DNA from: an uncultured Planktomarina sp.
Lineage (GTDB): Bacteria > Pseudomonadota > Alphaproteobacteria > Rhodobacterales > Rhodobacteraceae
Length of the DNA: 64,000 nucleotides
Direction of reading: 5' to 3'
Assembly (NCBI GenBank): GCA_905182425.1
Contig: CAJJBP010000007.1
Span: forward strand, 1-64,000
Positions 61,569 to 62,457 of this stretch are shown in pieces; positions within the stretch are counted from its first letter, which is position 1, and the number at the start of each line of letters is the position of its first letter. The translations under genes were made by a program, and so were the position numbers. The notes beneath the pieces are model-generated. The model ran no database searches. It was given only the letters and a program-made list of their open reading frames with translations, and was not told the origin of the DNA.

Positions 61569-61589
61569 AATGGGCCCAATATGCCACAA

Positions 61590-61621
61590 AGAAAAAGGGC
61601 CGCCTAGAAAAGACGGCCCTT
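61590..61621 (-). terminator. Intrinsic terminator on the minus strand, just before arfB
   Basis: On the minus strand AAGGGCCG (61621-61614) pairs with CGGCCCTT (61602-61595); two more pairs (TC with GG) can extend the stem around a TTTTCTA loop, and a TTTTTC tract follows. This ends the transcript that comes from 61.7-61.8 kb, 26 bases upstream of the arfB start, so arfB needs its own promoter or read-through. Confidence 0.85.
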
Positions 61622-61695
61622 CGAAAGTTTTTTGGGAGGCCGGGTCGTTTAGGACACCTTCGCCCAAGTTTGGCGGATTAACACCAAGGGTTGCC

Positions 61696-61752
61696 TTAGA
61701 GGACACCCCCCAAACCTGTTACGACTCCATTCTCCAATACCTTTCTTGACAC
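61696..61752 (-). CDS. Candidate 18-codon microgene with an extreme Shine-Dalgarno sequence
   Basis: The minus strand carries AAAGGAGGTGATCC at 61767-61754, with a GTG 7 bases after AGGAGG. From it an 18-residue frame reads MSRKVLENGVVTGLGGVL and ends at TAA (61698-61696). An intrinsic terminator follows at 61621-61590, so the whole unit would be about 170-220 nt. A TTGACT at 61816-61811 might be a -35 element. The complementarity to the 16S rRNA 3' end is 17 bases (see findings). If the G6 run at about 61706-61711 were G5, the frame would run on in frame into arfB. A non-coding RNA is equally possible. Confidence 0.45.
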   Translation of the reverse strand: MSRKVLENGVVTGLGGVL

Positions 61753-61812
61753 TGGATCACCTCCTTTCAGTTGTTTAAAGATATTCACAATTTGTCAGAG
61801 AGAGTTTCAAAG

Positions 61813-62457
61813 TCAATGATTTTTTACACTACGCCCTACTAGATATTGTACGAGCATACGAAATGGAACTAATGCCATAAGTGCAATAGAAAGCTTAACA
61901 AGCCAATCAGCAACAGCGAGCGATACCCATAAAGGCAATTCCGGGCCACTTCCAAGTAATGGTGCACCACCTTGTGCCCAGTCAGGAATGCTTGCCACTT
62001 CGAGCCTGTTGAACATGGAAGAGAACGCAATCGTAAAAAATAAAGCCGTGTCTATGGCGCTGCCAATCAAAGTAGATGCTAAAGGCGCACGCCACCATAG
62101 ACCACTTCGTAAGCGATCAAATATTTGGACGTCCAACATTTGTGCAATTAAAAATCCGATGCCTGATCCAAGTGCGACGCGCAAGGTTACAGCTGGATAA
62201 GAATATCCATCTCCCTGCAACATAACTTGCGTGCCAATGAGTGAGCATAAGATCCCCACGCAAAAGCCAACAAAAACTACACGACGTGCTGCGGCAATTC
62301 CATAAACTCGGTTCATCACATCCGTGACGAGAAAGGCCAAAGGATAAGTAAAAGCACCCCATGTCAGCCAATCCCCAAATAAGTATTGAACGAGGATGTT
62401 TGAGGCGACAACAATTACTGCCATGGCAATAATACCAGGGAGGTAGTTATTTTTCAT
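61813..62457 (-). CDS. yhhQ: Queuosine precursor transporter (YhhQ/VUT family)
   Basis: A 214-residue membrane protein with about six helices: GIIAMAVIVVASNILVQYLFG, the start of the VUT fold, then FTYPLAFLVTDVMNRVYG (family motif with Asp and Asn), FVGFCVGILCSLIGTQVML and ALGSGIGFLIAQMLDVQIFD, with PLASTLIGSAIDTALFFTIAF. YhhQ imports queuosine precursors such as preQ0/preQ1 for tRNA modification. The ATG at 62457 is used because the ribosome-binding site GGAA lies in the preQ1-type riboswitch 10 bases before it. The upstream riboswitch strongly supports this function. Confidence 0.93.
   Translation of the reverse strand: MKNNYLPGIIAMAVIVVASNILVQYLFGDWLTWGAFTYPLAFLVTDVMNRVYGIAAARRVVFVGFCVGILCSLIGTQVMLQGDGYSYPAVTLRVALGSGIGFLIAQMLDVQIFDRLRSGLWWRAPLASTLIGSAIDTALFFTIAFSSMFNRLEVASIPDWAQGGAPLLGSGPELPLWVSLAVADWLVKLSIALMALVPFRMLVQYLVGRSVKNH

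Follow-up and report, generated by a model that had tools for sequence, protein, structure and literature searches.

A conserved alphaproteobacterial small RNA with a long 16S rRNA complement and a short kept frame, a candidate mini-mRNA acting through ribosome engagement

What would an RNA do that offers the ribosome an exact complement of the 16S rRNA 3' tail, a start codon, 18 codons and then a terminator? Such an element occurs on the minus strand of the window analysed here, a 64,000-nt stretch from an uncultured Planktomarina sp., and the initial annotation proposed either a strongly translated microprotein gene or an RNA that binds 30S subunits. The complement reads GAAAGGAGGTGATCCAG at 61768-61752 and matches perfectly over 17 nt (plus strand 61752-61768, CTGGATCACCTCCTTTC); within the window no other match to the 16S tail exceeds 9 nt, and the 2.43-Mb assembly contains a single copy of the 11-mer AAGGAGGTGAT. 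The 16S tail GGCTGGATCACCTCCTTTC was found in 13 copies across 7 of the 20 genomes of the genus; it is absent from the window's own assembly, and we therefore infer the tail of the organism itself. As first described, a GTG (61752-61750) stands at ordinary spacing from the block and opens a frame of 18 codons with its stop at 61698-61696, and the unit has its own intrinsic terminator, with 12 pairs at 61622-61594. A simple terminator finder gave a hit for 90 of 170 copies of the element. The predicted RNA fold of 61588-61780 has an energy of -73.7 kcal/mol (z -3.57). A sigma-70 scan of the locus listed neither the putative -35 nor the putative -10 element given in Table 1.

Table 1 Features of the element and the evidence on which each is based (positions within the window).
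Feature	Position	Strand	Basis
Putative -35 element TTGACT	61811..61816	-	TTGAC-like hexamer largely conserved in 45-sequence alignment
Putative -10 element CAAATT, 16 nt past -35	61789..61794	-	Weakly conserved CANNCT-like hexamer in the same 45-sequence alignment
Predicted small RNA, about 190 nt, ends presumed	61588..61781	-	cmscan RF01867 match 61596-61776 and fold z
17-nt complement of 16S 3' tail (extended Shine-Dalgarno)	61752..61768	-	Sequence; conserved in relatives
18-codon frame, GTG start, TAA stop	61696..61752	-	ORF list; start and stop kept across family
P2 hairpin enclosing start codon (61756-61748 pairs with 61741-61733)	61733..61756	-	Folds and covariation count
P3 5' strand GTCGT, inside the AGTCGTAACAGGT-type sense 16S-like stretch	61721..61725	-	Alignment and covariation count
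P3 3' strand ACGAC	61644..61648	-	Alignment and covariation count
P4 5' strand CAGGTTTGG	61710..61718	-	Fold and covariation count
P4 3' strand CCAAACTTG	61665..61673	-	Fold and covariation count
Internal anti-Shine-Dalgarno CCTCCC, pairs with GGAGG (P1)	61634..61639	-	Folds and covariation count
Intrinsic terminator with T-rich tail	61589..61622	-	Terminator search; helix 6 of covariation count

A cmscan search matched 61596-61776 to the Rfam family RF01867 (CC2171, typed as sRNA) over the whole model (1-159), with E 2.3e-7. The score of 40.8 bits does not reach the gathering score of 75 bits, so the locus is treated as a distant homologue as opposed to a curated member. The conserved 5' block (cAAcaAucGAAAGGAGGUGAUCCAGUGUCU, nearly identical) and the 3' terminator are both present, while the middle of the window RNA diverges. 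Judged by sequence, the locus is a distant homologue of this Caulobacter sRNA family. When genomes were searched with the model, 61 of 289 from the class matched at E up to 0.001; the match among 14 control genomes was in Caulobacter vibrioides only. Just 9 of the 61 matching genomes lie above the cut-off, the gathering score thus excluding most homologues, and separate models for its subgroups may be needed. One genome, that of Methylobacterium tarhaniae (G503, L126), contains two copies above the cut-off, and multiple matches at E up to 0.001 occurred in G048, G307, G314 and three others. A search of plasmids for the element gave no match. At the Inquilinus limosus locus (L138, 7753-7804), a whalefall-1 RNA scores above its own gathering score.

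Published accounts of this family, so far as their available parts go, are brief. MH_s33 of Mesorhizobium huakuii, a CC2171 family member, was seen by sequencing as a 215-nt RNA and is not among the RNAs marked for Northern analysis (PMC5596092), and the family gained one more covarying pair in Rfam 15 (PMC11701678). For Caulobacter, most ncRNAs were found to be untranslated by Schrader et al. in 2014, with two previously predicted ncRNAs being translated (PMC4117421). Neither a function of CC2171 nor a description of a 16S-complementary block or frame in the family was found in the portions of the literature searched.

The block itself is kept in relatives. Its pattern is present in 37 of 61 relatives, comprising 18/20 of the genus, 12/17 others of the family and 7/24 others of the class, and 152 of 198 family genomes contain the block. 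With TGTC fixed and one mismatch allowed, 59 of the 289 class genomes contain the pattern, compared with 2 for a reversed control pattern. On these class-genome counts, together with the 9-nt runner-up and the single 11-mer, a chance match was rejected, and the 17-nt match is borne out as originally described. The wobble position had been left free in the pattern and was A or G in 60/60 class-genome matches, and either base pairs with the U of 16S. Among the family-genome matches listed, 13 have C at this position, with loss of the distal 16S pairing, and a fourteenth looks chance-like. Thirteen Rhodobacteraceae copies (L185-L196 and L013, from G348, G498, G494, G375, G458, G497, G401, G400, G453, G334, G404, G358 and G028) read GTGCTYY instead of GTGRTCC; their distal pairing is gone and the start-codon hairpin mostly retained. 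A scan with the wobble fixed to A/G returned at least 120 stretches, 80 of them at loci with names. The names among these 80 listed matches are alphaproteobacterial, for example Paracoccus, Sphingomonas, Mesorhizobium, Bradyrhizobium, Brevundimonas, Roseococcus and Inquilinus; some are labelled just 'Proteobacteria bacterium', and two are MAGs labelled Gemmatimonadota. In the latter (L068 and L097) the block is accompanied by a short frame, and chance or misbinning is possible.

Start codons in the family copies are ATG, GTG or TTG. Because collection of the copies required one of these at the expected position, the start codon was judged by the scans of relatives and class genomes. There its first base, left free in the pattern, was A, G or T in 60/60 class-genome matches, and C was seen at that base in none of the matches listed for family genomes. 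A stop after 14-31 codons was found in frame 0 for 171 of 172 copies, compared with 29/171 and 42/169 in frames 1 and 2 read from that position, although the copies are related and frame and stop counts are not independent events. This count applied no length filter and covered 172 of 174 copies; L080 was left out as cut by its locus end, and one further copy because no stop precedes its end. The nineteenth codon of 42 distinct Rhodobacteraceae frames is TGA in 15, TAA in 14, TAG in 12 and CCG in 1, that of 23 Sphingomonadaceae-type frames is TAA in 11, TGA in 11 and CAG in 1, and codon 15 of 7 Bradyrhizobium-type frames is TAG in 4, TGA in 2 and TAA in 1; such counts at a fixed codon lean towards their result, as groups were chosen partly by frame length (peptide pattern plus 16, 18 or 20 codons for the first group and 18 or 20 for the second). 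On a tree of the RNA built without the stop columns (35/36 rows), the stop types require at least 14 changes. Start and stop are therefore kept in one frame, as expected of a small-protein gene, and by this comparison the short frame is real. The original description is likewise upheld by the family comparison as regards the conservation of the RNA, the terminator that belongs to it and the retained start and stop. One copy, L157, has the only long frame, of 59 codons, which by eye resembles a secreted protein carrying the block, by chance or not.

The peptide fares differently. Mean differences at codon positions 1, 2 and 3 are 0.233, 0.275 and 0.285 for 39 distinct Rhodobacteraceae frames, 0.319, 0.352 and 0.227 for 23 distinct Sphingomonadaceae-type frames, and 0.126, 0.126 and 0.034 for 7 distinct Bradyrhizobium-type frames. 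Purifying selection on amino acids was not seen in any of these three sets, and a conserved microprotein, one option of the initial annotation, is not supported. If the element encoded a very short peptide with a function of its own, behind an exceptionally strong ribosome site, this would account for the kept start and stop and for subgroup peptide patterns such as VSRVILERGVGTVRGAVA. However, the codon positions are about equally variable in two groups, so that the peptide is not visibly conserved, and the small Bradyrhizobium set is least variable at the third position, which is RNA-like. The groups also have little in common after MS, and helix P2 contains or adjoins conserved codons such as TTG GAG. 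We consider this explanation improbable. A start and stop that are kept around a peptide that is not suggest that the element acts by engaging ribosomes as opposed to making a particular peptide.

Covariation was assessed on a consensus structure from 36 Rhodobacteraceae sequences. In the RNAalifold model, P1 joins the block's GGAGG to a CUCC element ahead of the terminator, and P2 is a 9-pair hairpin that contains the start codon; P3 was added by hand. Across this structure, 94.0% of 1427 cells are paired, compared with 86.3% in shuffled and at most 57.4% in slid alignments, and both sides have changed in 115 cells compared with 33.7 after shuffling, with the structures counted being partly derived from the same alignments. 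Compensatory changes in the stems, which would be expected of a functional RNA, are thus found. They are carried by P3, P4 and the terminator; P1 and P2 change mostly by G-U, P1 varying on one side only. Copies with altered start regions mostly keep P2. Over 48 rows, two of which (L199, L200) come from another subgroup, P2 is 89.1% paired (88.0% shuffled, at most 50% slid) and has 4 double-change cells compared with 1.0, which we take as modest support. A second group (36 sequences, with peptides starting VSHC, MSHC or similar) pairs the block with a 16S-tail-like stretch inside the frame. One block/internal-mimic pair is A-U in 19 and G-C in 8 of these sequences; 89.3% of cells are paired compared with 84.7% shuffled, double changes number 38 compared with 10.9, and one hand-added pair fails in 31/36. 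The alignments counted hold 36/44 and 36/45 sequences of their groups, and a third (22/24) was aligned and left out of the counts.

Tests of folding energy speak against this structure. The block pairs with the rest of the RNA better than in dinucleotide shuffles in only 16/44, 0/24, 9/45, 7/34 and 1/7 sequences by group. P2 does so in 27/44 Rhodobacteraceae sequences, and a further start-proximal helix in 0/24, 4/45, 4/34 and 1/7 sequences outside this family, so that shuffle-based support is weak in most groups. The window RNA is predicted to be closed (unpaired probability 0.04-0.15 for GGAGG and 0.14-0.20 for the start codon), while the folds of three groups are partly closed (0.24-0.33 and 0.49-0.58, respectively). 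A sequestered ribosome site is the layout of type I toxin mRNAs, and an internal anti-Shine-Dalgarno silencing a short toxic frame would resemble this element. With a peptide that is not conserved and by eye not membrane-type, and an opposite strand that holds no RNA family above gathering score, we rate such a toxin as barely plausible.

P3 also bears on the second 16S-like stretch, AGTCGTAACAGGT, which had been put forward as a sense counterpart of the block. The stretch is present; it begins at 61726, which is 26 nt past the first base of the start codon and not about 35. Its likeness to 16S did not survive alignment of 45 Rhodobacteraceae sequences, in which GTCGTAAC is confined to loci of the Planktomarina genus and the position reads like GTCGGGACAG outside it. 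On this alignment a second 16S mimic was rejected, and the stretch is one strand of helix P3. The frame would, as suggested, fuse to that of arfB by a one-base shift in the G6 run, since no stop interrupts the arfB frame upstream as far as 61706. A sequencing error in this run is rejected because the 18-codon frame is kept in relatives.

The element lies between a Vut_1 (yhhQ-like) gene upstream and an arfB-like gene downstream, whose RF-1 domain was confirmed. A tblastn search placed a same-strand Vut_1 relative no more than 800 nt upstream of 41/44 Rhodobacteraceae copies and 4/130 others, and a same-strand arfB relative no more than 800 nt downstream of 31/44 and 3/130, respectively. The RNA therefore has a fixed home in Rhodobacteraceae and not in the class. 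The arfB link first drawn stands as local synteny and fails beyond the family, making arfB probably a neighbour and not a target. A leader-peptide attenuator of arfB in Rhodobacteraceae would fit the shared strand and the arfB start 26 nt past the terminator stem. An attenuator would be followed by the same gene wherever it occurs; instead, 13 of the 44 Rhodobacteraceae copies lack arfB there (for 12 of these, the downstream sequence covered 540 nt or more), Vut_1 is the steadier neighbour, no conserved downstream gene was seen outside Rhodobacteraceae, and arfB rarely follows the copies of other groups, yet block, frame and stop are kept. Attenuation of arfB is accordingly very unlikely in our estimation, and loss or relocation of arfB may leave the RNA in place. 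The element as part of the yhhQ 3' UTR was rejected: promoter-like elements intervene, and no Vut_1 gene lies within 800 nt upstream in 108/108 copies of four groups. In Rhodobacteraceae, where a Vut_1 gene is usually present upstream, read-through from it may occur.

A more serious contender is a trans-acting base-pairing sRNA, in which CUCC would repress other mRNAs at their Shine-Dalgarno sequences while the frame and extended site mask or stabilise the RNA, making it dual-function with no functional peptide. A CUCC-type element precedes the terminator in Rhodobacteraceae, and the 3' part of the RNA (61582-61662, minus strand) resembles suhB/MmgR (RF00519; 28.1 bits, E 6e-4, below the gathering score of 41) in its CUCCC, ACUUU and terminator, in a match that excludes the 16S block and the frame. 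This likeness perhaps reflects a shared CUCC-plus-terminator module. SisA of Caulobacter is thought to repress its targets via an anti-Shine-Dalgarno 10-mer, and SisA-D and the sponge CrfA are small RNAs with such pairing; the available part of that account describes no 16S-complementary block or kept frame (PMC12559287). Class-wide, however, no CCTCC or CTCC stands at a common position. This explanation also leaves the 15-17 nt 16S complementarity and the kept stop codon unaccounted for, and we regard it as rather unlikely.

On balance we lean towards the element being a self-closed mini-mRNA that is opened by the 16S tail and acts through ribosome engagement. Comparison of the copies shows a 15-17 nt 16S complement, a start at fixed spacing, a kept stop, covarying helices and no conserved peptide. 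In the closed state, the internal anti-Shine-Dalgarno would pair with GGAGG, and in Rhodobacteraceae a hairpin would also hold the start codon; a point against this is that the position of the internal anti-Shine-Dalgarno varies. A free 30S subunit could displace the closed structure through long pairing by its 16S tail, whereupon the ribosome would initiate, translate a brief frame of indifferent sequence and stop. The RNA would most likely sense or take up initiation-ready 30S subunits, with RNA stability or CUCC exposure following from their engagement; the peptide is probably a by-product. The 30S binding or titration first proposed would fit such a role, and its output may be titration, sensing or the freeing of a CUCC seed. 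Calculated energies are compatible with opening by the tail: pairing of the 17-nt block yields -32.4 kcal/mol at an opening cost of 5.2 kcal/mol. For GGAGG alone the opening cost is 2.4 kcal/mol, with -6.6 kcal/mol gained by an AAGGAG site, suggesting that an ordinary site could open the RNA too. The model energies thus permit but do not demand the long 16S match, and leave a wide margin. A narrower version, which we put forward only tentatively, is a ribosome-availability switch, in which full-length 16S pairing by the free, mature 30S subunit would open the mini-mRNA, translation itself would be the output, and the freed anti-Shine-Dalgarno or the RNA level would relay the signal.

Known systems share parts of this arrangement. 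The rnTrpL/peTrpL RNA of Sinorhizobium meliloti is also a small RNA with a translated frame, of 14 codons; according to the available part of the source, it is leaderless, tied to trpE and makes a functional peptide, in contrast to the very long ribosome site and unconserved peptide seen here (PMC10117765). The extended Shine-Dalgarno sequences of Staphylococcus aureus likewise pair over a long stretch with the 16S tail where translation starts; the part of that report considered here presents them as general to its mRNAs, whereas the element is usually a single RNA gene in each genome and is sequestered internally (PMC13009471).

An Rfam family typed as sRNA would, on this evidence, hold a translated frame and reach well beyond its cut-off. 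A class-wide RNA with a kept start, a kept stop, a 15-17 nt 16S match and a drifting peptide would be a clear case of selection on the act of translation, and if the RNA reports free 30S subunits, it would provide a way to study how cells gauge their supply of ribosomes.
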